Positions 5,416 through 36,290 of a DNA stretch of 48,956 nt are shown piece after piece. The first letter of the stretch is position 1; every line of letters starts with the position of its first letter. Source of the DNA: Patescibacteria group bacterium (GTDB lineage Bacteria > Patescibacteriota > JABMPQ01 > JAQVVF01); contig JAQVVF010000008.1 in the NCBI GenBank assembly GCA_028699085.1, positions 1 to 48,956 of the forward strand, in the 5' to 3' direction. Position numbers and translations under genes: made by a program. The notes beneath the pieces were generated by a model. The model saw nothing but the letters and a program-made list of their open reading frames with translations. It was not told where the DNA came from and made no database searches.

Positions 5416-5897
5416 AATTTTCAATTTCTAATTTTTAATTTTTATTAAATTTCTAATGCAATAATTTCTAAACCTTTTTGATTGTGCTTTTGTTATCAAT
5501 AGAACAAGTTATTGATTGAAAAATAAGATGAAGTTCATGCGTTTCTTTCCAAAATGGAACTATTTGTTCTCTTGATTCTGGATGATATTTTGCTAAAATT
5601 CTTAGCCAATATTTTGATTCATTAGCTTCTTTTTTGCATATATATATTTTGTTTCTAAAATCTTTTCTTGAGCTTGAGGCATTGGCTTCATAATAGTTTG
5701 CTCCAATTGAAGTAATAGCTCTTGTTAACTGCGTAATAATATTTTTATTAAAATCGTCTTTTTTTATTTTTTTAATGAATTCTAAAATGTTTTCTGATAA
5801 TCTTGCCGTTCTTTCTTCTAAATCATATTCTTTATTTTTGTTTGAAAATTGGTTCATTATAAATTTAATAGAAATTAAGAATTAGAAATTAGAAATT
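5416..5897. repeat. Inverted-repeat-flanked element carrying four-helix-bundle copy 1
   Basis: Left arm 5423-5452 AATTTCTAATTTTTAATTTTTATTAAATTT vs reverse complement of the right arm (within 5861-5897) AATTTCTAATTCTTAATTTCTATTAAATTT: 28/30 identical. Confidence 0.8.
5468..5857 (-). CDS. Four-helix bundle protein (S23/23S rRNA intervening-sequence protein family), copy 1
   Basis: 'LTRAITSIGANYYEANASSSRKDFRNKIYICKKEANESKYWLRIL' family signature. Confidence 0.85.
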   Translation of the reverse strand: MNQFSNKNKEYDLEERTARLSENILEFIKKIKKDDFNKNIITQLTRAITSIGANYYEANASSSRKDFRNKIYICKKEANESKYWLRILAKYHPESREQIVPFWKETHELHLIFQSITCSIDNKSTIKKV

Positions 5898-5899
5898 CG

Positions 5900-7756
5900 T
5901 TACACGCCTCCTTGCTCTTCTTCATAATTCTTTTTAGCTTGTTCAAGCTCTAATAATTGTTTTGGATCTGTAGTAATTATTTGATCTTCTGAATATGAAG
6001 CAACAATTTTTATGGCAACGTGTTTTGAGCCAGCAAAGAATATTCCCTCACCTACATCAGATTCTAATAACAAATATTTTTCTTCTTCAGTTAGATAAAA
6101 AGTTTTCTTCAATAAATCAATAGATGCTGGAGATTGTTTTAATAATAATTGCAAAGCGGAATTTGTTACAATTGCTTTCCCATAATCTGATGTTAAAAAA
6201 TCGTTAACATCTTGAGAAATTGTGGTTGTACCAAGATAATATTTTCTACCTCTTTTAGCAATTCCATACATGAATCGAGCTGACTCTTCATATTGCATCA
6301 TCCACCAAGCCTCATCAACAACTAAAATTCTTTTCTTCATTTGAGCTCTGACAATATTCCAGATATGATTTAGGATAACATACATTGCAATTGGCCGTAA
6401 TTCGTCTTCAAGATCTCTAATACTGAAAACAACAAAAGGATTATCAATCCGAACATTAGTTGCTTGATTTAAAAGACCAGCAAAAGTCCCTTCTGTATAT
6501 TTTTTTATTCTTGGAACAATTTCTTCTGCGCCTTGCATCCCTTCTAAAATCTCTTGCAAATCTTTCATGGTTGGAACTTCTACTTTTGATAAATCAGAGT
6601 CAGCAGTAATATCTTTTTTGGCGTAAGTTTCAATAATTCCTCGGTCTAACAAAGCATCTTCTTCTTTTGTTAATCTACCAAGCATAATTCTAAGCAAACC
6701 TTTGATGTTGATAACAGCTGATCTAATAATATCTTTTGTTTTCATGCCGGAAATTGCAGAAGGTAAATCAAATGGATTTAATCTATATTCTGATTCTAAA
6801 GACATTTTTAAGAATGTTCCACCGACTGATTCACATAAATATTTATATTCATTTTCTGGATCAATAACAATTACTTCAGTGCCAAACATTAAGGATCTTA
6901 ATATTTCTAATTTAACAGCATAACTTTTTCCTGCACCAGATGTAGCAAAAACAACTGAATTGGCATTTGGCAAAGTAAAACGATCAAATAAAATCAAGCT
7001 ATTGTTGTGTCTATTTATCCCGTAGAGAATGCCTTCATCAGAGGTTAATTCAGAAGAAACAAATGGGAAACTTGTTGATAACGGAGAAGTATTAAAATTG
7101 TTCATAACACCAAGCTCATCAAGACCTAAAGGAGTTGTAGTGTTGAATCCTTGCTCTGCTTGAAAAAAAGCTCTTTTTGAATAAATTAATCTTTGACCTA
7201 ATAAATCCTCGATTTCTTTGGTTGTTTTTTCTAATTTTTTTTCTGAATCTTCATAAATAGTTATATAGAGTGCGAAGTGAAAAAATCTTTCTGTTCCTTG
7301 AATTAAGCGATCACGCAATTCTTCAACATCATTAAGCGCTGTTTCTAACATTGGATCACGAACTTCACCTTTTTCTTGTTTTCCGGCGATAGTTGATTGG
7401 ATCTGTCCAACTTTATTTTTTAATGTTTTCAGAATCTTTTCTGATTCAACTGGCTGAATATACATTGCCATATCAGCCTCAATGTTCATATTAATAACTG
7501 GTGCAAACCAGCCAGTATTAACAAAACGAGGATAAGTGAAAACAAATAACGTTCTAACAAATTTGTCACCAAGTTTAAGATAATTTGGATTAACCTGCAA
7601 AGCGCTAGGTGCAATAATATCGCGAATCGAAACTAGACCCTTTCGATAGATTTCTTCAGCCTTAAGGATTTCTTGCTGTTCTTGTTCGGTCAAATTTTCT
7701 AAATTTTTCTTGCCAACTGGCAAATCTTTATCTTGCATAGTTTTATAAATTTCCAA
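5900..7756 (-). CDS. virB4: VirB4/TraC-family T4SS ATPase
   Basis: Walker A 'FATSGAGKSYAVK', 'VIVIDPENEYKYL', Walker B 'KRILVVDEAWWMM', 'TTTISQDVNDFL'. Confidence 0.92.
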   Translation of the reverse strand: MEIYKTMQDKDLPVGKKNLENLTEQEQQEILKAEEIYRKGLVSIRDIIAPSALQVNPNYLKLGDKFVRTLFVFTYPRFVNTGWFAPVINMNIEADMAMYIQPVESEKILKTLKNKVGQIQSTIAGKQEKGEVRDPMLETALNDVEELRDRLIQGTERFFHFALYITIYEDSEKKLEKTTKEIEDLLGQRLIYSKRAFFQAEQGFNTTTPLGLDELGVMNNFNTSPLSTSFPFVSSELTSDEGILYGINRHNNSLILFDRFTLPNANSVVFATSGAGKSYAVKLEILRSLMFGTEVIVIDPENEYKYLCESVGGTFLKMSLESEYRLNPFDLPSAISGMKTKDIIRSAVINIKGLLRIMLGRLTKEEDALLDRGIIETYAKKDITADSDLSKVEVPTMKDLQEILEGMQGAEEIVPRIKKYTEGTFAGLLNQATNVRIDNPFVVFSIRDLEDELRPIAMYVILNHIWNIVRAQMKKRILVVDEAWWMMQYEESARFMYGIAKRGRKYYLGTTTISQDVNDFLTSDYGKAIVTNSALQLLLKQSPASIDLLKKTFYLTEEEKYLLLESDVGEGIFFAGSKHVAIKIVASYSEDQIITTDPKQLLELEQAKKNYEEEQGGV

Positions 7757-8213
7757 TCCTCAATTATCAATTTTCAATAAATTTTTCAATTTTCAATCAT
7801 CAATTACTTTTTCTATCTAGTGAATTGGCTATTGTTTGAAAAATTAATGTCAATTCTTTGGCTTCTTTCCAAAGTTTTCTAATTTTTTCTTTTTCATTCG
7901 GCAGACAACTGGCTAACATTCTTAACCAATGAAGTGTTTCTTGTGCTTCTTTTTTGCAAATAAATATTTTATTCCTGAAATCTCTAGTAGAGCTAGCATT
8001 ATTTGCTTCACAATAATTTGCGCCAATGCTTGTTCCTGATCTGATTAACTGACTTATTATTGGTTTTGTTATTGAATCCTGAATAATAATTTTGCAATAA
8101 GTAATAATGCTTTCACCAAATTTTGCTGTTCTTTCTTCTAAATTATAATTTTGTTTTGAAAATTGGTCCATTGAATATTTATTGTAAACTGAGAATTGAT
8201 AATTGAAAATTAC
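7757..8213. repeat. Inverted-repeat-flanked element carrying four-helix-bundle copy 2
   Basis: Left CAATTATCAATTTTCA(gap)ATAAAT vs reverse complement of right CAATTATCAATTCTCAGTTTACAATAAAT. Confidence 0.7.
7800..8171 (-). CDS. Four-helix bundle protein (S23/IVP family), copy 2
   Basis: 'LIRSGTSIGANYCEANNASSTRDFRNKIFICKKEAQETLHWLRML'. Confidence 0.85.
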   Translation of the reverse strand: MDQFSKQNYNLEERTAKFGESIITYCKIIIQDSITKPIISQLIRSGTSIGANYCEANNASSTRDFRNKIFICKKEAQETLHWLRMLASCLPNEKEKIRKLWKEAKELTLIFQTIANSLDRKSN

Positions 8214-8950: not shown

Positions 8951-9441
8951 AATAGAAAATCCTAAGCACTAATATCTAAATTCTAAATAAATTCAAATTT
9001 CCAAAATACAAATTATCAAAATTATTTATTTGTTTTATTTTCTTTTTCAATAATTGATCCGAATATTTTTGTTAATTCTAATGCTTCTTGTATCAATGAA
9101 CTCTTTTCTTGCTCTAATTTTTTATTATTATCTACAAAAATTAAGTTTAACCAGTATCGACTTTCCTTAGCCTCTTTTCGGCAAATTTTAATTCTATGAT
9201 AGAAATCTTTTTTACTTAATGCCTCATTTGCTTCAATATAATTAGCTCCGACAGATCCTGATGACCTAATAACTTGTTTGCCATCTTCTATATTCGAAAT
9301 TGTTCTGGGAATTATCTTAACAAAATCCCTAGTACGTTTTGCAAAATTTAGTGTTCTTGGCTCTAAATCATAGTAGCTTGTTTTGGTCATTTTCTTTTAA
9401 GTTTTGAGTTTGTTTAGAATTTAGAGTTTAGGATTTAGAGT
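8951..9441. repeat. Inverted-repeat-flanked element carrying four-helix-bundle copy 3
   Basis: Left AAATCCTAAGCACTAATATCTAAATTCTAAATAAATTCAAA vs reverse complement of right AAATCCTAAACTCTAAATTCTAAACAAACTCAAA. Confidence 0.75.
9022..9390 (-). CDS. Four-helix bundle protein (S23/IVP family), copy 3 (divergent)
   Basis: 'VIRSSGSVGANYIEANEALSKKDFYHRIKICRKEAKESRYWLNLI'. Confidence 0.85.
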   Translation of the reverse strand: MTKTSYYDLEPRTLNFAKRTRDFVKIIPRTISNIEDGKQVIRSSGSVGANYIEANEALSKKDFYHRIKICRKEAKESRYWLNLIFVDNNKKLEQEKSSLIQEALELTKIFGSIIEKENKTNK

Positions 9442-9864
9442 TTTTTCATTCATGACCGTCTTGAAGTCTAATTGTCTCGCTAATCGATGAATTGAACTCG
9501 GTGTATATTTTTTTTCGCCAATTGTGATTTTTTCTGGACCTGATTTTTTATTTGTAAGATCATAAGCTTTTACTCTAGGAGCTCTAGCACTTTTATGCCA
9601 AACTAATACTTTTGGACCAAGCATAAATTTAAAAACTGCAGACAAATAATTAGTTAACGGGCGACCGTATGGTTTGACAAAAGCCAATGGCACAACTATC
9701 ATGCCGACAATGACTGCTAAAAAAATGAAAAGACTTAGATCAACAAAAGACCAAGCAATTAACAGAAATATGCCTCCGCCAAGCAAAAAGAAAAACTGCT
9801 TCAAAGTAAGAGGACCAATAATTTGATCTTCTATTTCAACAAATTGTGGAATGGGATATTGCAT
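9421..9864 (-). CDS. PrgI-like T4SS inner-membrane protein
   Basis: 'MQYPIPQFVEIEDQIIGPLTLKQFFFLLGGGIFLL...VKPYGRPLTNYL'. Start placed at MQYPIPQ rather than the upstream MLRIFI. Confidence 0.8.
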   Translation of the reverse strand: MQYPIPQFVEIEDQIIGPLTLKQFFFLLGGGIFLLIAWSFVDLSLFIFLAVIVGMIVVPLAFVKPYGRPLTNYLSAVFKFMLGPKVLVWHKSARAPRVKAYDLTNKKSGPEKITIGEKKYTPSSIHRLARQLDFKTVMNEKTLNPKL

Positions 9865-10000
9865 TATAAAAATTCTAAGCACTAAATACTAAATTCTAAA
9901 CAAATTCAAAGCACAAATTTTTAAATATTCAAAACAAGTTTTGATTTTTTAATTTTGGTAATTTGGATTTGTTTAGGATTTAGTATTTAGGATTTTGTAC
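9865..10000. repeat. Gene-less AT-rich imperfect palindrome, same arm family as copy 3
   Basis: AAATTCTAAGCACTAAATACTAAATTCTAAACAAATTCAAA ... GGATTTGTTTAGGATTTAGTATTTAGGATTTT. Confidence 0.75.
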
Positions 10001-10002
10001 TT

Positions 10003-11415
10003 TTAGATCAACTTGCTGATGCTCTTGACAGCAATATATTCATCTTCTGTCAAAAATTCTGTTCCTTGTTTTTTTCTATCTTCTCCTATTTGGCTAATTG
10101 ATTTTTTTTCTGAAGAACTTTGATTTTCCATTGCCTCGTATAATTTAAATAACGGACTTTTCATAAAATTTTCTTGAGCTATTTTTCTTTCATCATGCGT
10201 CTTGGCAACTTCTCTAATTTTTGTCAATAAAGCTTGAGCTGCTTCTTTTGCAGTTGCGCCTAATTTTTTAAAATCAACAATACTGATATTTTGAATTTTA
10301 TTGATTTCTTTGGAAACTGGTTTTGTGGGTGTCAAAACTTTGTGTTCTTTATGAAAAACTTTTGCTGGCGGGTTTGGCATTTCTTCAACTTTTGGTTTTG
10401 TAATTTCTCTGACAACTTGTTTTTCTGGTAATGCTTTGATAACTTTTGCTTCTGATTCTATTTTTTTAGCCTTTTTTGGTTTACCGATATTTTTTAAAGA
10501 AGCAATAAATTTGTTTGCTGGCTCTTCTGCTTCAAGCTTTTTAATATCAATAGCTCCTTTCATTGCCTGTTCTGCCATTTTTTTGTTTTCTGCTAATATT
10601 TTTTCTCGTTTTTCTGTTTTGGGGGTAGGAAATGGAATAGAACGAACAGTGCCGGCTGATTCATTGACAGATTTGTTAACTTTTTGTAATTCTTTGGTAG
10701 TAAAATCTTCGACTGCGACAGGTTTTTTTAATTTAATATCATACATTTCAATGGGATAGCTGCCTAATCCTCCAACGTCAGTTACTTTGAGATGCAATTT
10801 ATCGTAAAACTGTAAAAGTATTTTAACTTGCTTTTTTTCTGCCTCATTTAATTTTCTAATATTTTGAGAATGAATAAAATAGCTGTTTCTTTCAACTAGA
10901 GAATGAATACCTGGTTCTGATGTATATTCATAATCCTTAATCCAATTTTGAATAGTTGGCTGAACTTCTGTACTGCCAAGAATAATGTTTTTTGTACCAA
11001 TTTTTTGCTGATTCTTTTTTATAGATGCTAAAATCTTGGTAAGAAAATCATCGCGAAAAGGCAATTGAATTAAATTGACAGCAGACCTTATAGATTTCTC
11101 TAGATCAATTTTTCTAACTAAAGCATCTTTAGTGTGCTTTTGAAAGAGATCTAAAATATCATTGTTGTCATAAAGAAAATCCAAGACATTGAATTTTAAA
11201 TAAATCATTATATGATGATATTTCTGATACATTTCGGGATTTTCTTCCTGAAAACTTGGATTTTTTTCTAAAGCATCGTGAATCGATAAATAAATCTGAA
11301 AAGCTTTTTTTGCATCATCTCCAGAAAAGAAAAAATTGGCACATTGCTGTATTTGCTTCAAAATTTTTGTATAAGTCTGATAATCAACTAATTTTTGTTT
11401 TGTCAATTTTTCCAT
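10003..11415 (-). CDS. Hypothetical protein in the T4SS cluster (helical, Lys-rich)
   Basis: 470-aa ORF, no domain recognised; packed between VirB6-like and PrgI-like genes. Confidence 0.6.
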   Translation of the reverse strand: MEKLTKQKLVDYQTYTKILKQIQQCANFFFSGDDAKKAFQIYLSIHDALEKNPSFQEENPEMYQKYHHIMIYLKFNVLDFLYDNNDILDLFQKHTKDALVRKIDLEKSIRSAVNLIQLPFRDDFLTKILASIKKNQQKIGTKNIILGSTEVQPTIQNWIKDYEYTSEPGIHSLVERNSYFIHSQNIRKLNEAEKKQVKILLQFYDKLHLKVTDVGGLGSYPIEMYDIKLKKPVAVEDFTTKELQKVNKSVNESAGTVRSIPFPTPKTEKREKILAENKKMAEQAMKGAIDIKKLEAEEPANKFIASLKNIGKPKKAKKIESEAKVIKALPEKQVVREITKPKVEEMPNPPAKVFHKEHKVLTPTKPVSKEINKIQNISIVDFKKLGATAKEAAQALLTKIREVAKTHDERKIAQENFMKSPLFKLYEAMENQSSSEKKSISQIGEDRKKQGTEFLTEDEYIAVKSISKLI

Positions 11416-11431
11416 TTTTTGATGTTTTATT

Positions 11432-13744
11432 TTATGGTCTTGGTCCTTTACCTGCTGATGTTGGGGTAACTATTGGTGATGGAGCACTTGAACCACCACC
11501 CTTTATACCCATGCAGGAATCTAAAAATGCCTGGGCATTCTTTTTATCATTAGCACCTTCTATTTTATTAATTTCTTTTTGAATTTCATCTTTCATTCCA
11601 ATAATTGCGGATCTTGTTTCATCTTTTAAGAAACGGTCGGTTTGACTTGCCCAACCTGCGCCAATACCTTCACCATCCTGATCAGGATTTCCATGCAATA
11701 GAGTGAGAAATGCTCCAGATAGTTTTTTATTAACTTTTCTACTTTTAGGTACAAGTTTTGGTTTGCCAGTCTTTTTATCAATAATAATTTTGCCGGTCGT
11801 ATCTCTGCCTTCTACAAGAACAACCTTTCCTTTGGCATCTCTTTCATATTCATATTGTTCTTCAACAAAAGCTGTTCGATGTGCCGCAACGGCCTCATTG
11901 GCTCCTTTTTTACGCCAGAAAATTGCGGCTGTTTTGGCTTGGTCTTCTTTCGTTCTAAATTCGTGCTCTCCGGTTTGTGGGTTTAATGTTGACATACCGG
12001 CTTGCGCATAATCACCATTCTTTCTTTTTGATTCATCTACATTGCCAGCAATATAAGCTGCTCTTTTTTCACCAAATACTTTTGTTAATAGCTCTTCATG
12101 AAATTGAGCATTGTTAGTCCCTATATTAGCGGCAGATATTTTTTGATCTAATATTTCTGCTCCTAACTCCGGATGGTTTGCAATTTCATTTTCATCAACT
12201 TGCGAGGCAAGCAACGTATAAGCTGCTTCAGCTTTGTCTTTATCTCCGGACCTTACTGCTCTTGAAAATTCTTCTAAATAAAAAGCTGGGTTACCACGAC
12301 CATCTCGTTTTAAATCTGACATATGTTTATCGACATTTTCCATTTGACCTCGACGCACATAATCAGTTTCGTCTTTACCCATTCCAGGTATTTTATTAGT
12401 TATTTTATTAATGCCTTGGTGAACATAACCAGCAACACCAGACATTGCTTCAGCAGTACGTTTTGCCTGTCTTTCTTTCCAACCAAGTGCTAGTGCGGTT
12501 GGGCTCAAATATTTGGTTCTATCACCCCATTTTTCGGCTGTATCAGTTTCAGCACCAAGTTTTTTTAGTCCACCGGAAATCATCTTTCCAAGTGTGCCTT
12601 TTGATCCACTAGCTAATGACTCGTTTCCTTTTCTCCAAGCAAAACCGCCAGCTAAAGCGCCAGCTCCTAACAATCCTTTTTTGACTAATCCCATAGCAGC
12701 ACCAGCAAGTCCATTTGCTGCTTCTTTAGAAAAAGTAAATCCAACAAACATGATACCGCAAGAAATAGCCATGCCAAAAAATTGACCAATCGTACCAGCT
12801 GACATTCCGACATTAGTTTGAAATTGTTGGCCAACGCCATTGGCGAGGCCTTGTATACCGCCACCTTGGGAAAATTTGACAGCAAAGAGCAAAGCTAGAA
12901 GATAGCAAATACAGACAACTGGTCCAATAAATAAATATTTTGTGAATTCTTCCCACCATTTTGAAGCATATTTTTGTGTTACTGGTAAAACATTCAATAC
13001 GAAAGCAACTGGCGAAAAAACTGTCAAAATCATGAGAACAACTGTACGAATAACTAATAAAACGGCTAGTCCAGCTAAAGCCATAGTGAACATTCCTAAA
13101 AAGCCAACTATTGCGACATTCGTGCCTAATACTGCTGGTTCTGTACTCCAAGCTGACAAACCCTTACCTAAAGTTAAGCTTAGGTCAAGGAAACTGGAAA
13201 CATTAAATAATGCTAATAATGAAGCTGAAGCAGTAGCGCCATTTTGAGTGCCCATAATCCCACTCATAATGGCATTAGAAAAATCAACTAGTGTCAAAGC
13301 AATAGTCTTGCTGAAATTGACTAATAATGCAGCAACTAATAATTTTGGCAACAAAGCTTTAAAATGGTATGACTCAATTTTCAATATTGTGGCAAAAGCA
13401 ATTCCAAGTAAAGCTAAAACAAAAAGAATATTTAAGATGTCGCGAACTATTACCCAGCCAGCAGTAACTATTTCATTCATTGAGCTAGCATCAATTGTTG
13501 TCCCACCAATCACCCAATCAAATACAGTACCGGTTATCCATAAGAATAAAGTGATTACACCCACAGCAAGATAACAAATTCCGCCGATAATTGCATTTAC
13601 CACTCCAAGCACTCCGCTTCCAAGGGTTCCAGCTCCAGCAGGTGCTGGCGTTTGTGCTGAAACAAAAAACATTGGTATCAAAAATAGAGCAAGAGAAATT
13701 GCGATAATGAGTATTTTTCTAGTTTTAGCTTTATTTTTGAACAA
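11432..13744 (-). CDS. VirB6/TrbL-like polytopic membrane protein with long cytoplasmic C-terminus
   Basis: Signal peptide plus several long hydrophobic helices, then ~400-aa hydrophilic tail ('GNESLASGSKGTLGKMISGGLKKLG'). Confidence 0.7.
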   Translation of the reverse strand: MFKNKAKTRKILIIAISLALFLIPMFFVSAQTPAPAGAGTLGSGVLGVVNAIIGGICYLAVGVITLFLWITGTVFDWVIGGTTIDASSMNEIVTAGWVIVRDILNILFVLALLGIAFATILKIESYHFKALLPKLLVAALLVNFSKTIALTLVDFSNAIMSGIMGTQNGATASASLLALFNVSSFLDLSLTLGKGLSAWSTEPAVLGTNVAIVGFLGMFTMALAGLAVLLVIRTVVLMILTVFSPVAFVLNVLPVTQKYASKWWEEFTKYLFIGPVVCICYLLALLFAVKFSQGGGIQGLANGVGQQFQTNVGMSAGTIGQFFGMAISCGIMFVGFTFSKEAANGLAGAAMGLVKKGLLGAGALAGGFAWRKGNESLASGSKGTLGKMISGGLKKLGAETDTAEKWGDRTKYLSPTALALGWKERQAKRTAEAMSGVAGYVHQGINKITNKIPGMGKDETDYVRRGQMENVDKHMSDLKRDGRGNPAFYLEEFSRAVRSGDKDKAEAAYTLLASQVDENEIANHPELGAEILDQKISAANIGTNNAQFHEELLTKVFGEKRAAYIAGNVDESKRKNGDYAQAGMSTLNPQTGEHEFRTKEDQAKTAAIFWRKKGANEAVAAHRTAFVEEQYEYERDAKGKVVLVEGRDTTGKIIIDKKTGKPKLVPKSRKVNKKLSGAFLTLLHGNPDQDGEGIGAGWASQTDRFLKDETRSAIIGMKDEIQKEINKIEGANDKKNAQAFLDSCMGIKGGGSSAPSPIVTPTSAGKGPRP

Positions 13745-18815: not shown

Positions 18816-18835
18816 GAAATGATTTTAACAATTTA

Positions 18836-18960
18836 ATAACCAAGATACAAGACACAAATAATATTCAAAAATCAAATTAAAATAATCAAACTCGTCGCTT
18901 TTGATTATTGATTATTTTAATTTGAAATTTGTTTGATTAATAATTTTGCAATCCAAAATT
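18836..18960. repeat. Gene-less AT-rich imperfect palindrome upstream of pcrA
   Basis: Arms ...AATCAAATTAAAATAATCAAA / TTTTGATTATTGATTATTTTAATTTGAAATTTG... around CTCGTCGC. Confidence 0.65.
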
Positions 18961-18995: not shown

Positions 18996-19063
18996 AAGGC
19001 GGAGACAAGCTCCGCCCATACGCGAAAATTGTATTCACGTAGGGGCGGAGTTTATCTCCGCCC
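18996..19063. repeat. GC-rich nested palindrome (REP/MITE-like)
   Basis: GGCGGAG-ACAAG-CTCCGCC and GGGCGGAG-TTTAT-CTCCGCCC hairpins, themselves arranged as a larger imperfect palindrome (CCATACGCGAA / TTCACGTAGGGG). Confidence 0.7.
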
Positions 19064-19402: not shown

Positions 19403-19439
19403 ACAATCACCCCCTCTCAAAAAATTAGATTTATAAAAT

Positions 19440-19605
19440 TAAATAACCAAGAAACAAGATGCAAACAATATTCAATAACCAATTTCCAATTTCCAAAATC
19501 GTTGTTTCTTTAAGTTTGATTATTTTAATTTGAGATTTGTTTGTTTCTTGATTAAAAATTTTGAATGCAAAATTTTTAATTGGTTATTGGTTATTTTTAG
19601 TATAA
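19440..19605. repeat. Gene-less AT-rich imperfect palindrome between galT and hup
   Basis: AATAACCAAGAAACAAG...AATAACCAATTTCCAATTTCC ... GTTTCTTGATT...AATTGGTTATTGGTTATT. Confidence 0.6.
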
Positions 19606-20858: not shown

Positions 20859-23800
20859 TTATAGCTGAAACGCATCCTTATCTGCAATTACAAACTTTGC
20901 TTTAGAAAGAGAAGTAAAATGATAGATTGGGGCAAAGTTTTGGTTGCTGCCTTTCTTAGTTTTAGCAATCGATGTTGGTCTTAGATAGTAGTTCCTAATT
21001 TTGAATTTTAAATTGTTTTTTTGTAAGTTTTGATAGACTGGATATGGACCTTGCCAATTGCCTTTTCGATCTTTGATAAAAAGACGGAGATTCTTTTCTT
21101 TAAGCTTGTTTTTCTTTAGCTTTTTTGTTTTGTAATGGAAAGTGATTTTGAAAGTAGTCTTGCGGATATTCCTGATGTTTGATTTTAGAACAAGATAAGC
21201 AGGATAGAGTTTTTTCTTGATGAAATGGCGGGAAGAATATTTCTTGTTTTTACGAATTAAAGTTAGATAAAGACCTTTAGAATTAGATGGCTTTTCATAG
21301 AAATAGACTTTGATGTCTTGTCCTTGATCTTGATATGTTCTTAACAAATTAGTTTGCTCTAAATTTAATGTTTGATTAAAATCAGTTGCCATAGAATCTA
21401 AAGCTGTAAAAGTCATTGCTTCAGACTGGTTAATCATTGTATTGCCAGCTAGATCTTTTGCATTTCTGACTGAAATATATCCAGAAGTGTTGGTATAGGA
21501 GCTGTCTAAAACAATATTTCCAGTCCATGTCTTTCCTGAATATGATGTTTGGACTACTCCATAGTTTTCAGTTCTTAAACCTGTAATCTCAACAACTGGC
21601 AATGCAGTTGTTAACATGTTTTCTGAAAAGACAATTGTTACTGTGACTAAACCAGCTTGAGCTGGATTTGGAGTATAGGAAATTGAAGAAATAGTTGGTA
21701 GAATGCTTTCAACTTGAAATGTCGAAGCAGTTAGATCAGGCAACATTGTATTTCCAGCAATATCTTTAGCGCCTGTTACAGAGATCGTTGCTATTGCATC
21801 TTCATTGTCAGAATTTAGAGTAAAAGTGCCATACCAAATAGCAGAGCCATAAATATTCTGGCTGACTGTGTAAGAACTAGCAAGACCATTGATCACTACT
21901 GTTGGCGTAACAGTTGTATCCATGGCTTGCGAAAAGTAAAGAATGACTCCTACTGTTCCAGGGATAGCTGGATTAGGATTAACAATGACTGAAGTAAGAT
22001 ATGGAGCAATAGTATTAACTTCAAAAGTACCAGCTGAAATATCAGCTAGCATTGTATTGCCAGCTAAATCTTTTGCGCCTGCAACAGAGATTACAGCAGT
22101 TGTGATTTCATTATCATCAAGTAAATTAAAAGTGCCAGTCCACAAATTACCATAGCTAGTTTGAGCTACAAGATATGGACTGCTTGTCAAACCTGTGACT
22201 GTAACTGTTGGTGAAACAGTTGTATCCATTGTTTCCGAGAATACCAAACTAACTGTTACATTTCCAGGCTTAGCTGGATCAGGATTCGCTATCGCTGATG
22301 TGACTGTTGGTGCTGTTTCATCAAGAATGATTGTACTAGAAATGCCAGTGCTTTCTGAAAGAAGCTTGTCTCTGTATTTGACATAGACTGTCTTTGTCCC
22401 ATCGCCAGAAGATAATGTAAAGTTCTTTGATGTTGCATAAGTTTCCCAACTAGCGCCAACAAATGTCGGATCTTCTGAAACCATCATCTGATATGCATCA
22501 GACGAGGCTGATAAAGCTAAAGTAACAGCAGTTGTATTTGTATAACTTGCTCCGGAATTAATTGCAATTGACGTGGAAGTCGGGGCGGAGCCGAAAATAT
22601 GGAAAAGAAAATAGTAAGTGTTATAAGGATTAGGATTATTACTATCGTAACCGATTATATGTGCAGTATCGTCACTAGCTAAAGCCAGACTAGGCTTGTA
22701 ACCAAATAAAGAGTGATCACTTAAAGATTCAACAATCCATAAGTTACTTTTATAACCAAATTTCAAGAATTTGGTAACTTGGTCAAAATATGAAATCATA
22801 GGAATATTTTGACTGTTCAGTTTCAAAGTAACAGAATCACCATAACTTGCATCAGTATCAACGAATTCAGTATGCCAACCATTGATATCTTTGTAAGCAT
22901 ATTTTACTTTAAAATTAGTAGCATCATAATATGCAATATGTGGATAATCAAAGCTATCCAAATCAAGAGAAGCATAAGTGCCGACTGAACCACCAGAATC
23001 AACAGTTTCTGTATGCCAGCCAGTACCATCTTTGTAGGCATAAATAAGATCGGCAGTAGAAGAACCATAATAACTAACACAAGGATAATTAGCGGAATTA
23101 ATTGCAATTGAAGTTTGACTGCCAGCGCCAATATTTTCACTATGCCAACCAGTACCATCTTTGTAAGCATGTTTAACTTGACCTGAATTATAATAACTAA
23201 TATGCGGATAGTTAGATTGATCTATCACAATCGAGTTATAAGTTCCACCGGAAGTATCAACTGTTTCTAAATGCCAACCCGATATATCTTGGTAAGCATA
23301 TTCAAGATCATCATTTACTCCATCATAATAGCTGATATGGCTATAATTATTTTGATCAAGAGCAATGCTGGAATAGGGGGAATTATTTATACTAGTGCTT
23401 TTATCAACAATAGCTTCATTCCAACCATACTCATTTTCATAAGTATAATTCAAACGATAATTAGTAGGAGAGCTAATATGAACTAGATTATTACTATCAA
23501 CAGCAATCGCAGACGTCTGACCAGGATACTGATATCGATAATCATCTAGATTCCAAACTGTAGTATAATAAGCACGTATTAAATTATTGTAGTTATATGT
23601 AATTTGAGGCAAGCCAGTTGAAGTTAGATCAATTGAAGTCGGATAAGAATAAGAAGCATTAGTGCTAACTGTCGCATAATTCCAAGCTCCAGCATCTTTG
23701 TAAGTATATTTAAGATCATAATTCGTCACATCACTATAACTAATATGGGGACGATTAGAACTATCTGTAACAATTGAAGTAGACCGACCGATATCTGCTG

Positions 23801-24671
23801 AACTTGAATCAACTGTTTCTACTGCCCAAGCTCCACCACTAACTTTGAAAGCATATTTGAGATCTTTATTGGTATTATCATAATAACTGATATGGGGCTG
23901 ATTTAATGAATCAACAGCAATCGAGTTATATTGCCCAACATCACCTCCAAAATCAACAGTTTCTTCATGCCAACCAGAACCATTTTTGTAAAAATAAAAA
24001 AGATCATATCCTGCCGGATAGTTATAATAGCTGATATGAGGATAATTAGAAGAATCTAAAGCTATGGAAAGATAAATACCAAAATTAAGAAATGTATTTG
24101 ATTTAATAGTTTCATAATGCCAACCAGAAACATCTTTATATACATATCTTATATTTTGAGTAGTATAATTATTATCAATATAACAAATATGAGGATAACC
24201 ATTATTATCAATGGCAATAATAGACGAATTGATATATGCTCTATTATCAACAACTTCATAATGCCAACCTGAAGCATCTTGATAAGCATAGCGAAGATAA
24301 TAACTAGTTGTATCTATATAACTAATATGCGCGTAGCCATTACTGTCAAGACCTAAAGAAAAAGTTTGAGAAGTTCCATTATAATGAGCATAGCTAGCAT
24401 CAGGTTCAAGAACTTGATAATAAAATTGACCATTAGCGTCTTGATATCCATACTTTATTCTTTTTAGAAAACCATCATAAAAAGCAATACTATAACGGTC
24501 ATTACTTTTATTAATTTTTAAAAAAGCCATATAAGAAGAAAATTGATTAGTATAATCAATTTTCTCCGTAGTCAGCGCCATCGCATCATTAGAAGGCAAA
24601 CCAAAAAAGACAGCAAATAAGCTTATGCTGATAAGACAAAAAAATGAAAAAATTAATATTTTTTTAATCAT
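20859..24671 (-). CDS. Large secreted repeat protein: ~12 propeller-like repeats, Ig-like domains, basic C-terminus
   Basis: Signal peptide; repeated 'SI(A/V)IDSxNYPHISYYDxxxxDLKYAYKDxxGWHxETVD'; three 'xxPxPAxPGxVxVxLxFSExMDTTVxPTVxxxGL' Ig-like units; Lys-rich C-terminal ~150 aa. Confidence 0.8.
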   Translation of the reverse strand: MIKKILIFSFFCLISISLFAVFFGLPSNDAMALTTEKIDYTNQFSSYMAFLKINKSNDRYSIAFYDGFLKRIKYGYQDANGQFYYQVLEPDASYAHYNGTSQTFSLGLDSNGYAHISYIDTTSYYLRYAYQDASGWHYEVVDNRAYINSSIIAIDNNGYPHICYIDNNYTTQNIRYVYKDVSGWHYETIKSNTFLNFGIYLSIALDSSNYPHISYYNYPAGYDLFYFYKNGSGWHEETVDFGGDVGQYNSIAVDSLNQPHISYYDNTNKDLKYAFKVSGGAWAVETVDSSSADIGRSTSIVTDSSNRPHISYSDVTNYDLKYTYKDAGAWNYATVSTNASYSYPTSIDLTSTGLPQITYNYNNLIRAYYTTVWNLDDYRYQYPGQTSAIAVDSNNLVHISSPTNYRLNYTYENEYGWNEAIVDKSTSINNSPYSSIALDQNNYSHISYYDGVNDDLEYAYQDISGWHLETVDTSGGTYNSIVIDQSNYPHISYYNSGQVKHAYKDGTGWHSENIGAGSQTSIAINSANYPCVSYYGSSTADLIYAYKDGTGWHTETVDSGGSVGTYASLDLDSFDYPHIAYYDATNFKVKYAYKDINGWHTEFVDTDASYGDSVTLKLNSQNIPMISYFDQVTKFLKFGYKSNLWIVESLSDHSLFGYKPSLALASDDTAHIIGYDSNNPNPYNTYYFLFHIFGSAPTSTSIAINSGASYTNTTAVTLALSASSDAYQMMVSEDPTFVGASWETYATSKNFTLSSGDGTKTVYVKYRDKLLSESTGISSTIILDETAPTVTSAIANPDPAKPGNVTVSLVFSETMDTTVSPTVTVTGLTSSPYLVAQTSYGNLWTGTFNLLDDNEITTAVISVAGAKDLAGNTMLADISAGTFEVNTIAPYLTSVIVNPNPAIPGTVGVILYFSQAMDTTVTPTVVINGLASSYTVSQNIYGSAIWYGTFTLNSDNEDAIATISVTGAKDIAGNTMLPDLTASTFQVESILPTISSISYTPNPAQAGLVTVTIVFSENMLTTALPVVEITGLRTENYGVVQTSYSGKTWTGNIVLDSSYTNTSGYISVRNAKDLAGNTMINQSEAMTFTALDSMATDFNQTLNLEQTNLLRTYQDQGQDIKVYFYEKPSNSKGLYLTLIRKNKKYSSRHFIKKKLYPAYLVLKSNIRNIRKTTFKITFHYKTKKLKKNKLKEKNLRLFIKDRKGNWQGPYPVYQNLQKNNLKFKIRNYYLRPTSIAKTKKGSNQNFAPIYHFTSLSKAKFVIADKDAFQL
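22600..24560 (-). repeat. Intragenic degenerate tandem repeats (~45-50 aa units) in the 1270-aa protein
   Basis: Recurrent 'NYPHISYYD...DLKYAYKDGTGWHTETVDSGG' units. Confidence 0.8.
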
Positions 24672-24837: not shown

Positions 24838-25629
24838 TTAAATCTCAATTTCTTCATTAATTCTGGAAATTGTATTTCCTTTTTCTTTGTCTAAATTAAT
24901 GACAACTGCATTAACAATGCAGTTTCCTGTTTCATCAACTTCCCATCGATGAGGCATTTGAGTCAAAAATTGTTCGATAACTTTTTCTTTTTGAACTCCC
25001 AAAACAGAATCTTTGATTCCAACCATGCCGACATCTGAAATATAGGCTGTGCCTTTTTGTAAAACTTCTTCATCAGAAGTTTGAACATGGGTGTGTGTTC
25101 CTACAACTGCTGAGACTTTTCCATCTAAATAAAAACCCAAAGCTTTAACTTCTGAAGTTGCTTCTTTGTGCAAATCAACAATGCTGAAGTCAATGTGTTC
25201 ATTCTTTGTTTCTTCTAAAATTTCATCAATAGTTTTGAATGGACAAACAAGATCTTCTTTCATAAAAACTCGGCCTAAAACATTAGTAATCAAAACTTTT
25301 TTGGTACGAACTTGTTTGATCAAATATCTTTTGCCTGGATTTTCTTTTGGATAATTTGCTGGTCTGACAATTGGCAAATTTTTGTCTTGATCTAACATTT
25401 CGACACCTTCTGTTTTGTCATAGATATGATTACCTGAAGTTAAAACATCAATTCCAGCATTTAAAATTTCTTGGACTGTATTTTTGGTAATACCAAGACC
25501 ATGGGCAAGATTTTCGCCATTAGCAATAATTAAATCTGGATTATATTTGGCTTTCAATTTTGGCAATATCTTTTTGATGGCGTTGCGACCTGCTTTGCCA
25601 ACAATATCACCGAAAAATAAAATTATCAT
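24838..25629 (-). CDS. ymdB: YmdB-family metallophosphoesterase
   Basis: 'MIILFFGDIVGKAGRNAIKKILPKLKAKYNPDLIIANGENLAHGLGIT', 'TSGNHIYD', 'VVGTHTHVQTSDE'. The upstream 45 codons of the ORF lie in an intergenic repeat and were removed. Confidence 0.9.
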   Translation of the reverse strand: MIILFFGDIVGKAGRNAIKKILPKLKAKYNPDLIIANGENLAHGLGITKNTVQEILNAGIDVLTSGNHIYDKTEGVEMLDQDKNLPIVRPANYPKENPGKRYLIKQVRTKKVLITNVLGRVFMKEDLVCPFKTIDEILEETKNEHIDFSIVDLHKEATSEVKALGFYLDGKVSAVVGTHTHVQTSDEEVLQKGTAYISDVGMVGIKDSVLGVQKEKVIEQFLTQMPHRWEVDETGNCIVNAVVINLDKEKGNTISRINEEIEI

Positions 25630-25747
25630 ATTATTAAATTTCCAATTACCAATGATCAATTTACAATCAATTTCCAATGAAAATTTTGAAAATTGGTTCA
25701 TTGAAAATTTAATGAAAATTAAAAATTGTAAATTGAAAATTATTTTA
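25630..25747. repeat. Deletion derivative of a four-helix-bundle element between rny and ymdB
   Basis: On the minus strand: TAATTTTCATTAAATTTTCA-ATGAACCAATTTTCAAAA (MNQFSK), compared with copy 1 TAATTTCTATTAAATTTATA-ATGAACCAATTTTCAAAC (MNQFSN), then a 3' arm. Confidence 0.75.
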
Positions 25748-27280
25748 TTATCTTGCAAAATCAACTGCTCTTGTTTCTCTAATGACGTTTACTTTGATTT
25801 CGCCAGGATATCTTAATTCTTTTTCAATCTTGTCAGCAATACCTTGCGCTAATTTTTTAGCTTCAAGATCATCAACTTGTTCAGGAGTAACAAAGACGCG
25901 AACTTCACGACCAGCCTGAATAGCATAAGCTTTATCAGCACCTTCAAAACTCAAAGCAATATTTTCAAGATCTGTTAAACGTTTAATATAATTTTCGTAT
26001 GTGTCTTTACGAGCGCCTGGTCTTGCTCCAGAAATTCCATCAGCTGCTTTAACAATTACTGCTTCAACTGTATGAGGTTCAACATCTTCATGGTGACATT
26101 CGACAGCATGAATGATCTCTTCAGAAACACCAAATTTTTTCAAAATATTTCTGCCAATTTCAATATGCGTTCCTTCAATTTCATGATCAACTGCTTTACC
26201 AATATCGTGTAATAGACCAGCTTTTTTTGCGATATTGACATCAGCTCCTAATTCTTCAGCAATGATTTTTGCAAAGTTAGCAACTTCGATTGAGTGTCTT
26301 AAAACATTTTGTCCATAAGATGATCTGAATCTTAATCTGCCTAAAACTTGAACTAATTTTGAATCTAAATCAGCGATACCTAATTCATAAGCTGCTTGCT
26401 CGCCAGCTTCCTTGATCTCATGAGCGATTTCTTTTTTGACTGTAGTAACTGTTTCTTCAATTTTGGCTGGATGAATTCTACCATCTTGAATTAGACGTTC
26501 TAATGTTCTTTTTGCAACATGACGTCTGATCGGATTAAAACCAGAGATAACAATTGCTTCTGGAGTATCATCAACAACTATTTCAATACCACATAATTCT
26601 TCGATTCTTTTAATGTTTCTACCTTCACGGCCGATGATTCTTCCTTTCATTTCATCAGAAGGTAATGCAACAGTTGTAGCTGTTGATTCTGAAGCTTGCG
26701 GACGAGCGTAACGTTCAATTGCCTGTGATATAATATTTTTTGCTTTTGTATTTGCTTCATCTTTGGCACGATTCTCTGCTTTTTTAACAATACCCAAAAC
26801 TCTTTCTTGCTGATCTTTTTCAACCATTTCCAACAAAACTTCTTTTGCTTTTTCTCTCGACAAAGAGGCAACTTTTTCTAATGTTGCCATTTGCTTTTTT
26901 CTGATCTCGCCTAATTCTTGAGTTTTTCTTTGGATTGTACGATTTCCTTTTTCTAATTGTTCTTCTTTTTGAGAAATTGAATCTAATTTCTGATTTAAAA
27001 TTCCTTCTCTTTGGGCTAATTTTCCTTGAAAATCTAAAAGCTTAGCTCTTCCTTCTCGCTGTTCTTTTTCAGCGTTTTCTTTGATTTCTAGAGCTTGAGT
27101 CTTTGTTTCTAATAAGATTTCTTTTTGTTTTGCTTTTGCTGTTTCAACTAAGGCTTGAGTTTTTGCTTCGATTGAGTCTTGTCTGCTTTTGGCAATTACT
27201 TTTCTCAAAATGTAGCCAAGTGTTAATCCTAAGATTAAAGCGATAATCGAAGATACGACAATTAATAATAAGTTATCCAT
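25748..27280 (-). CDS. rny: Ribonuclease Y
   Basis: N-terminal TM + coiled coil, KH 'GRIIGREGRNIKRIEELCGIEIVVDDTPEAIVISGFNPIRR', HD 'LLHDIGKAVDHE'. Confidence 0.95.
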   Translation of the reverse strand: MDNLLLIVVSSIIALILGLTLGYILRKVIAKSRQDSIEAKTQALVETAKAKQKEILLETKTQALEIKENAEKEQREGRAKLLDFQGKLAQREGILNQKLDSISQKEEQLEKGNRTIQRKTQELGEIRKKQMATLEKVASLSREKAKEVLLEMVEKDQQERVLGIVKKAENRAKDEANTKAKNIISQAIERYARPQASESTATTVALPSDEMKGRIIGREGRNIKRIEELCGIEIVVDDTPEAIVISGFNPIRRHVAKRTLERLIQDGRIHPAKIEETVTTVKKEIAHEIKEAGEQAAYELGIADLDSKLVQVLGRLRFRSSYGQNVLRHSIEVANFAKIIAEELGADVNIAKKAGLLHDIGKAVDHEIEGTHIEIGRNILKKFGVSEEIIHAVECHHEDVEPHTVEAVIVKAADGISGARPGARKDTYENYIKRLTDLENIALSFEGADKAYAIQAGREVRVFVTPEQVDDLEAKKLAQGIADKIEKELRYPGEIKVNVIRETRAVDFAR

Positions 27281-27559
27281 TTCAATGCATCACATCCATA
27301 AAAAGTGAATAAATTTCTTCTTTGGTTTTAAAACGAGCTTATCAACTAGATAAGTGTAGTTCCTAAGTATTGGCTTGAATAAGGTATTTATCAAAGTCAA
27401 ACATAATTTCTTTAAGGTAAATTTCGATTTAATTCAACAATTTAAGAGATGCGACTGTTAATTAATAGTTAATTAGCTAAAAAGCAATTTTGTTATTAAA
27501 TTACTGCCTTTTAGCACTCTTCATTTTAACAAAAATAAAATGTTTTGGCAAGAATAAAT

Positions 27560-29510: not shown

Positions 29511-29645
29511 AATTTTCAATTTCTAATTTTTAATTTTTATTAAATTTCTAATGCATTAATTTTCAAACCTGTTCGCCGTCGACGAGTTTAGAAATTGAAG
29601 CAATAGGAATTTAATAGAAATTAGAAATTTAAAATTAGAAATTTT
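29511..29645. repeat. Deletion derivative of the copy-1 type element between cdaA and cdaR
   Basis: 29511-29555 is identical over 45 nt to 5416-5460, and similarity continues into the position of the 4HB 3' coding end (AAACCTG vs AAACCTT); right arm TTTAATAGAAATTAGAAATTT. Confidence 0.8.
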
Positions 29646-30405: not shown

Positions 30406-30407
30406 AA

Positions 30408-30556
30408 ATAAAAATTCTAAGTACTAAATTCTAAACTCTAAACAAATATAAAATTCAAATGACCAAAATTAAAAATTATCGATGCTGACTTTTAAATATT
30501 TAAATTTTATAATTTTGAATTTGTTTAGGATTTTGTGCTTAGGATTTAGTATTTTT
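30408..30556. repeat. Gene-less AT-rich imperfect palindrome between nrnA-like and cdaA
   Basis: AAATTCTAAGTACTAAATTCTAAACTCTAAACAAAT ... ATTTGTTTAGGATTTTGTGCTTAGGATTTAGTATTT. Confidence 0.75.
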
Positions 30557-31539: not shown

Positions 31540-31683
31540 GGACAAAATTCTAAATCCTAAATTCTAAATCCTAAACAAATCCAAAAACCAAATTACCAAA
31601 TGCTCAGAATTTCTTCGTCTGATTTTGAACATTTATATTTTTGATTTTAAATTTGTTTAGGATTTAGGGTTTTGTGCTTAGAA
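31540..31683. repeat. Gene-less AT-rich imperfect palindrome between rbfA and nrnA-like
   Basis: AAATTCTAAATCCTAAATTCTAAATCCTAAACAAATCC ... AAATTTGTTTAGGATTTAGGGTTTTGTGCTTAGAATTT; the right-hand gene end lies inside the arm. Confidence 0.75.
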
Positions 31684-31996
31684 TTTCCTCGATACGGGCT
31701 GCGTGCTCTTCTGAATGATCTAAGACAAATCTAATTTTTGGAACAAAACGCATTACTAATTTTCTATTCAAAGCTTTTTGGAGATGATAAACATTATAAT
31801 TAAGCTTTTTGATAACGCCAACTGCTTTGTTTTTTGGGATCACAGAAATATACACGTTTGTGTGTTTAATGTCAACAGAAGTATCCACTTTTGAAACAGT
31901 TACGAAAGCGTCTATTGGAAGCTCGATTTCTTCTTTAATAATTGAACCTAATTCTTGCTGAATTAGGCTATTTAATTTTTCTAAACGATGAGACAT
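31664..31996 (-). CDS. rbfA: Ribosome-binding factor A
   Basis: 'MSHRLEKLNSLIQQELGSIIKEEI...VTVSKVDTSVDIKHTNVYISV...VPKIRFVLDHSEEHAARIEEIL'. Start moved to MSHRLEK; the upstream ORF extension is repeat-derived. Confidence 0.85.
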   Translation of the reverse strand: MSHRLEKLNSLIQQELGSIIKEEIELPIDAFVTVSKVDTSVDIKHTNVYISVIPKNKAVGVIKKLNYNVYHLQKALNRKLVMRFVPKIRFVLDHSEEHAARIEEILSTKP

Positions 31997-32004
31997 AAGT
32001 GTAA

Positions 32005-32093
32005 AAAATACAAATTCCAAAAAACAAATCACAAACCTTCTACTTTGTAATTTGTAACTTGGGATTTGTTTGGAATTTGGGATTTGGAATTTA
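32005..32093. repeat. Gene-less AT-rich imperfect palindrome between infB and rbfA
   Basis: AAATACAAATTCCAAAAAACAAATCACAAA ... TTTGTAACTTGGGATTTGTTTGGAATTTGGGATTTGGAATTT. Confidence 0.65.
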
Positions 32094-36209: not shown

Positions 36210-36290
36210 GTTAAAAAATCAAAATTTAAAATTAAAAAGTCAAATTACTAGATTAAAATGATATTTGTATAATATATCATTTCTTGTTTT

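Follow-up and report, generated by a model that had tools for sequence, protein, structure and literature searches.

A gene-less heptad palindrome, probably related to IVP/IVS elements, in the rny-ymdB gap of a Patescibacteria genome

The gap between rny and ymdB in a 48,956-nucleotide stretch of DNA from a Patescibacteria group bacterium (contig JAQVVF010000008.1; the whole stretch is called the window below) is filled by a palindrome built of tandem 7-nt repeats, or heptads. It is probably a non-autonomous member, lacking a gene, of a palindromic repeat family related to the IVP/IVS elements, comparable to a MITE, and not the deletion relic of a gene-bearing cassette that an earlier note had seen in it. 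Three such cassettes are present in the window, each encoding the four-helix-bundle 23S rRNA intervening-sequence protein (IVP; PF05635/TIGR02436) and no other gene. The arms are indeed common to the gap and to cassettes, as the note had it, but no gene body was found in the gap, the IVP reading frame of the three cassettes is absent from it, and its nearest relative is itself gene-less and carries ATA where the gap has ATG.

The palindrome in the rny-ymdB gap

The element lies between rny and ymdB, outside any rRNA gene (Table 1), and the gap forms a single long hairpin when folded (-30.1 kcal/mol, z -5.3). When its 118 bases were searched against the whole genome, 65 places were retrieved, among them more than 20 full or half palindromes, the dispersed copies being similar over their full length with E values down to 1e-22. 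The top match was the gene-less palindrome C25:66650 (score 110, 105/105 nt), whose inner arm, AATAAACCAATTTTCAAAATT, equals that of the gap except for the ATA; cassettes 1 and 2 rank below it, with scores of about 70 that cover the arm only. The 3' arm described earlier is present and takes part in the hairpin, although on its inner side it is shorter than that of C25:66650, and judging from the alignment the gap looks like a palindrome of this type minus about 12 nt of the inner 3' arm.

The minus strand from 25701 reads ATGAACCAATTTTCAAAA, in agreement with the earlier quotation, and its likeness to the first two cassettes is present as stated. Local alignment of the gap comprised 57 nt of cassette 1 (score 69; dinucleotide shuffles: mean 27.6, maximum 53) and 59 nt of cassette 2 (score 73; mean 26.5, maximum 45), with 0/1000 shuffles reaching either score, whereas the alignment with cassette 3 remained at the shuffle background and gave no match. 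Chance similarity, judged against this composition-matched null, was thus rejected for cassettes 1 and 2, with which the arms of the gap also agree in the flank comparison (z 9.7 and 11.7). Both alignments take in the start codon and stop at the end of the arm. The interiors of the three IVP genes of the window (IVP1-3) gave z values of -1.1, 1.4 and -0.8 against the gap, gene-body sequence not being recognisable, and the same comparison for 17 other gene-less copies revealed no consistent likeness. Of all 54 tests, the gap included, a few gave weak values, with z 3.4 as the best. The loss of a body by internal deletion was thus not confirmed. The similarity between gap and cassettes is real and, to judge from the aligned sequences, is explained by the shared arm.

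The start codons that were thought to have been kept as remains of a gene find their explanation in the structure of family A, the genome-wide, AT-rich palindrome family of the gap. In an alignment of 17 family A copies, the arms are composed of AATTNNC heptads whose register shifts by 4 nt (ATNA in most copies) after the fourth heptad, and the inner arm AATNAACNAATTTTCAAA is common to gene-less copies. The 18-mer AATGAACCAATTTTCAAA, over which gap and cassette 1 are identical (18/18), is inner-arm sequence: it recurs with 14-17/18 identity in nine of the 17 gene-less copies, and ATG stands at the place of the start codon in four of the 17. Because the IVP reading frames of cassettes 1 and 2 start within the inner arm, any gene-less copy with a G at one position shows ATG there. 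With the inner arm common to gene-less copies, the start codon of the gap, and MNQFSK with it, is arm sequence, and no gene need ever have been present. The exact sequence ATGAACCAATTTTCA occurs twice in the genome, in cassette 1 and in the gap; with one mismatch it is found in cassette 2, at an unrelated place at 13369, and at C25:66712 (ATAAACCAATTTTCA) and C8:8990 (ATGAATCAATTTACA), both of which lie within gene-less palindromes.

A start-in-arm pattern like that of family A is also seen in gene-less palindromes of other families, at 30406-30556 of the window and at L153 4622-4735 in genome G001, which is of a different genus but, alone of the searched genomes, of the same family. Their inner arms carry CAAATGACCAAAA or CTAATGACAAAA, resembling the starts of IVP3 and of the IVP of G001.

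As had been noted, the palindrome creates a false N-terminal extension of ymdB, but its length is 24 codons (MNQFSKFSLEIDCKLIIGNWKFNN) and not 45. The TIGR00282 match begins at residue 2 of the shorter protein, and relatives agree with this start. Between galT and ymdB the window also encodes a repetitive protein of 1270 aa (20859-24671), which is missing at that place in G001.

Table 1. Features of the rny-ymdB site and palindromic elements of the window (window coordinates)
Feature	Position	Strand	Remarks
rny (RNase Y)	25748-27295	-	upstream neighbour of the gap
ymdB (TIGR00282 family metallophosphoesterase)	24838-25629	-	true start MIILFFGD
Spurious in-frame N-terminal extension of ymdB, 24 codons	25630-25701	-	made by the palindrome
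Family A heptad palindrome without a gene, occupying the rny-ymdB gap	25637-25741	-	genome-wide matches, alignment, hairpin fold
5' arm of the gap	25684-25741	-	AATTNNC heptads with 4-nt ATTA register shift; ATGAACCAATTTTCAAAA is the inner arm
3' arm of the gap	25637-25682	-	alignment to C25:66650 and fold; about 12 nt of inner arm missing relative to C25:66650
Gene-bearing cassette 1, family A arms	5416-5897	-	IVP gene 5468-5857
Gene-bearing cassette 2, family A arms	7748-8211	-	IVP gene 7800-8171
Gene-bearing cassette 3, family B arms (AAATNCT heptads)	8956-9445	-	IVP gene 9022-9390
Gene-less palindrome, family A	1197-1321	none	
Gene-less palindrome, family A	29511-29643	none	arms like cassette 1, z 22.9
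Gene-less palindrome, family B	9867-10005	none	
Gene-less palindrome, family B	30406-30556	none	no such element there in G001
Gene-less palindrome, family B	31541-31688	none	unrelated palindrome at the same gap in G001
Gene-less palindrome, family C	18821-18945	none	matches cassette C17:9012
Gene-less palindrome, family C	19428-19553	none	matches cassette C17:9012
Gene-less palindrome between infB and rbfA	32003-32090	none	absent from G001

Gene-bearing and gene-less copies in two genera

How the palindromes of the window relate to gene-bearing copies was examined with the flanking sequences of nine IVP cassettes from this genome. Family A resembles cassettes 1 and 2, family B cassette 3, and family C the cassette C17:9012, which contains a stop and is decaying; the palindrome at 34054 matches cassette C21:12460, and for the one at 36213 no clear match was found among the nine flanks. 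For each of the window's families A, B, C and E, the genome has a matching gene-bearing cassette, with z values of about 7-23. That gene-less palindromes share their arms with gene-bearing cassettes is thus well supported by sequence, and this sharing supports two forms of one element; origin of one form by deletion from the other does not follow from it. The parallel to MITEs and autonomous elements drawn in the earlier note holds to some extent at the level of the arms, but not for internal deletion.

Two further properties of the palindromes were considered. CpG dinucleotides are more frequent in the centres (3.2 per 100 nt) than in the arms (0.24) or the window (1.9), but CpG-rich loops were rejected as a signal, the loops being closer to ordinary DNA and the arms merely CpG-poor. 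The RNAalifold consensus energy was almost nil (-0.46) because the copies align poorly in their inner arms, and this result, with double changes in 4/15 pairs, was not taken as evidence.

In G001 the rny-ymdB site is empty, about 20 nt separating the rny stop from the ymdB start. More distant genomes have a short gap or other sequences there, among them an unrelated heptad array in G029, and the evidence for an empty site comes mainly from the one relative, G001. No IVP gene was found in the 200 nt before ymdB at any ymdB locus examined. Elsewhere, palindromes at the g30557-dacA and infB-rbfA gaps are absent from G001, and G001 has palindromes at the g28303-clpP and g34792-recF gaps that are absent here. 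The rbfA-g30557 gap holds different palindromes with unrelated heptads here (31541-31688) and in G001 (L152 1983-2061), which points to repeated insertion at one gap in two genera. At the virB4-g4727 gap, where this genome has a gene-bearing cassette, G001 shows a degraded heptad sequence that lacks a gene and whose right flank is similar; this is the sole compared gap that speaks for interconversion of the two forms, independent insertion being the alternative. The elements have turned over since the split of the two genera. The junctions are AT-rich, and no clear target-site duplication was seen against the empty sites of G001. Palindromes of the family A type (AATTTTCAATTTTCAATT.. followed by the 4-nt shift) also occur in distant families of the phylum (L165 and L166 in G019, L167 in G029, L180 in G056).

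IVP genes and heptad arms across bacteria

In the phylum, a flanking inverted repeat with z > 4 was found at 78 of 96 IVP loci (the 96 include one masked stretch, L241), and where arms were long enough, their strongest period was 7 nt in 57/71 and 8 nt in 11/71 cases. Outside Patescibacteria (Clostridia, Bacteroidota, Acidobacteriota, Planctomycetota, Chloroflexota, Pseudomonadota and others), inverted repeats flank IVP at 40 of 59 loci, with period 7 in 30 of 36, while the same test applied to the flanks of ymdB as a control was positive in 1/25. The heptads vary between cassettes, the two arms of one cassette agree, and the median IVP arm has 37 nt, close to five heptads. Arbitrary stretches of 10 IVP-bearing genomes contained 15 gene-less heptad palindromes in 388 kb and those of 10 IVP-less genomes none in 356 kb (Mann-Whitney p = 0.001), heptad calls depending on thresholds set in the present analysis; block-shuffled stretches, the window included, yielded 2 palindromes of any kind compared with 69 in the real ones. 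IVP cassettes with more similar proteins also tend to have more similar arms (Mantel rho 0.23, 0/999), a signal to which shared ancestry could contribute in part. Loci L263-L342 provide examples of heptad-armed IVP genes from many phyla of bacteria, and a contig labelled Methanophagales archaeon (L342) also encodes IVP.

IVP genes of many phyla lie inside imperfect palindromes made up of heptads in tandem, and every cassette has a heptad of its own. In the searches made this was apparently new: no description of the general pattern was found in the searchable literature, whose coverage leaves out most subscription journals. The closest published statements concern heptameric repeats before the Coxiella S23p frame (PMC4990558) and IVP frames in rRNA insertions of CPR bacteria (PMC11270868).

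Intervening sequences (IVSs) with an S23p/IVP reading frame are known from 23S/16S rRNA of Leptospira, Coxiella and Salmonella (PMC4990558). Like them, the present elements are hairpins bounded by inverted repeats, the stem of the gap included, and the gene-bearing members encode PF05635/TIGR02436; the tandem heptamers (GACAGAT) before the S23p start of the Coxiella IVS have their counterpart in the heptad arms. Unlike them, the elements are numerous and are found between protein-coding genes, with several heptad families in one genome, and the gap copy is without the S23p/IVP frame, which not every IVS has. Intergenic arrays of heptameric simple repeats have also been reported in Xanthomonas (GGGAATC, often paired as inverted repeats) and Nostoc (GGGGAYT), but the passages on them mention no link to an IVP gene (PMC4692102). 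With MITEs the palindromes have in common that they are short, dispersed and non-coding and share terminal inverted repeats with longer gene-bearing elements of the same genome; the differences are that the gene-bearing partner encodes IVP and no recognised transposase, that no clear target-site duplication was found, and that no internal remains of the partner's gene are present.

Origin of the gap element and its implications

It is unlikely, in our estimate, that the gap arose in MITE-like fashion from a gene-bearing cassette, by an internal deletion that spared the 5' arm and the first codons. The 18/18 identity with cassette 1, the situation at the virB4 gap and the existence of decaying cassettes such as C17:9012 would fit such an origin; however, the copy closest to the gap lacks a gene and has ATA, ATG needs just one A-to-G change, the gene body is found in no gene-less copy, and no genome examined has a cassette at the rny-ymdB gap. 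Even less credible is the idea that the palindromes are REP-like elements which owe their mobility to the genome's three Y1 (REP-associated tyrosine) transposases, the IVP genes being captured passengers. REPs are short palindromes whose movement is ascribed to enzymes of this kind, and like the heptad palindromes they are intergenic and tied to a small protein family. Three Y1_Tnp genes do exist in the genome, but they are flanked by GC-rich palindromes (GGCGGAG..CTCCGCC and similar), whereas the heptad palindromes flank IVP genes, track IVP presence and are found beside IVP in many phyla. The three genes (L160-L162; C21:6386, C27:56658 and C21:8751) each have GC-rich REP-like palindromes, and a further copy of these lies at 18998-19062 of the window, downstream of hup, as part of a second, separate palindrome system.

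A local origin of each palindrome, by replication slippage of heptads and template switching, with likeness arising through convergence in an AT-rich genome, has very little probability. Arms of tandem microrepeats, degenerate sequences and the lack of visible target duplications are in accord with it, but it does not account for the full-length similarity of dispersed copies (E to 1e-22), the conservation of the off-register ATNA in the arm, the presence of the family A type in three distant genomes (G019, G029 and G056), or the correspondence of palindrome families to cassette families.

If the gap element is a gene-less copy of an IVP-related repeat, as we prefer, the palindrome would have entered between the stop of rny and the start of ymdB once the lineage had separated from that of G001, or would have been lost in G001. 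Beyond the arms and heptads, the arm families common to both forms, the presence and absence between genera and the association with IVP genes, all observed directly, we infer that IVP elements are mobile hairpin cassettes, that the IVP protein itself or a partner would recognise their arms, and that gene-less palindromes with matching arms may be moved in trans. To our knowledge, IVP is not a known transposase, and movement could instead depend on an unlinked enzyme, or spreading could take place at the level of RNA. Avd, a protein related to IVP, works with a reverse transcriptase in diversity-generating retroelements. A reverse transcriptase gene (L159, G000:C23:18501-19202) with an adjacent weak PF05635 match (L018, C23:19825-20124) and an AAC-rich repeat is probably such a retroelement with an Avd-like protein; nothing links this reverse transcriptase to the heptad palindromes.

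Recognition might involve one heptad per subunit of an IVP pentamer, an idea suggested by the five chains of the PDB relative 2rld, the reported toroidal homopentamer of Xanthomonas S23p, the GACAGAT heptads of Coxiella (PMC4990558) and the median arm length. Somewhat speculatively, IVP (PF05635) genes throughout Bacteria might even form one class of mobile hairpins with heptad arms read by a pentameric IVP ring, one heptad per subunit. The rRNA IVSs would then be those that had inserted in rRNA, and the rny-ymdB copy and other gene-less palindromes would represent the non-autonomous form.

Annotators should beware that such palindromes can yield false N-terminal extensions, as with the 24 codons on ymdB. 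The role of the IVP/S23 four-helix-bundle protein has been a question ever since the discovery of IVSs in rRNA. The consistent genomic signature described here, with heptad arms in many phyla and with gene-less copies found only in genomes that have IVP genes, allows a direct test, and it raises the questions of whether IVP binds its own heptads and whether it moves or cuts the hairpin.
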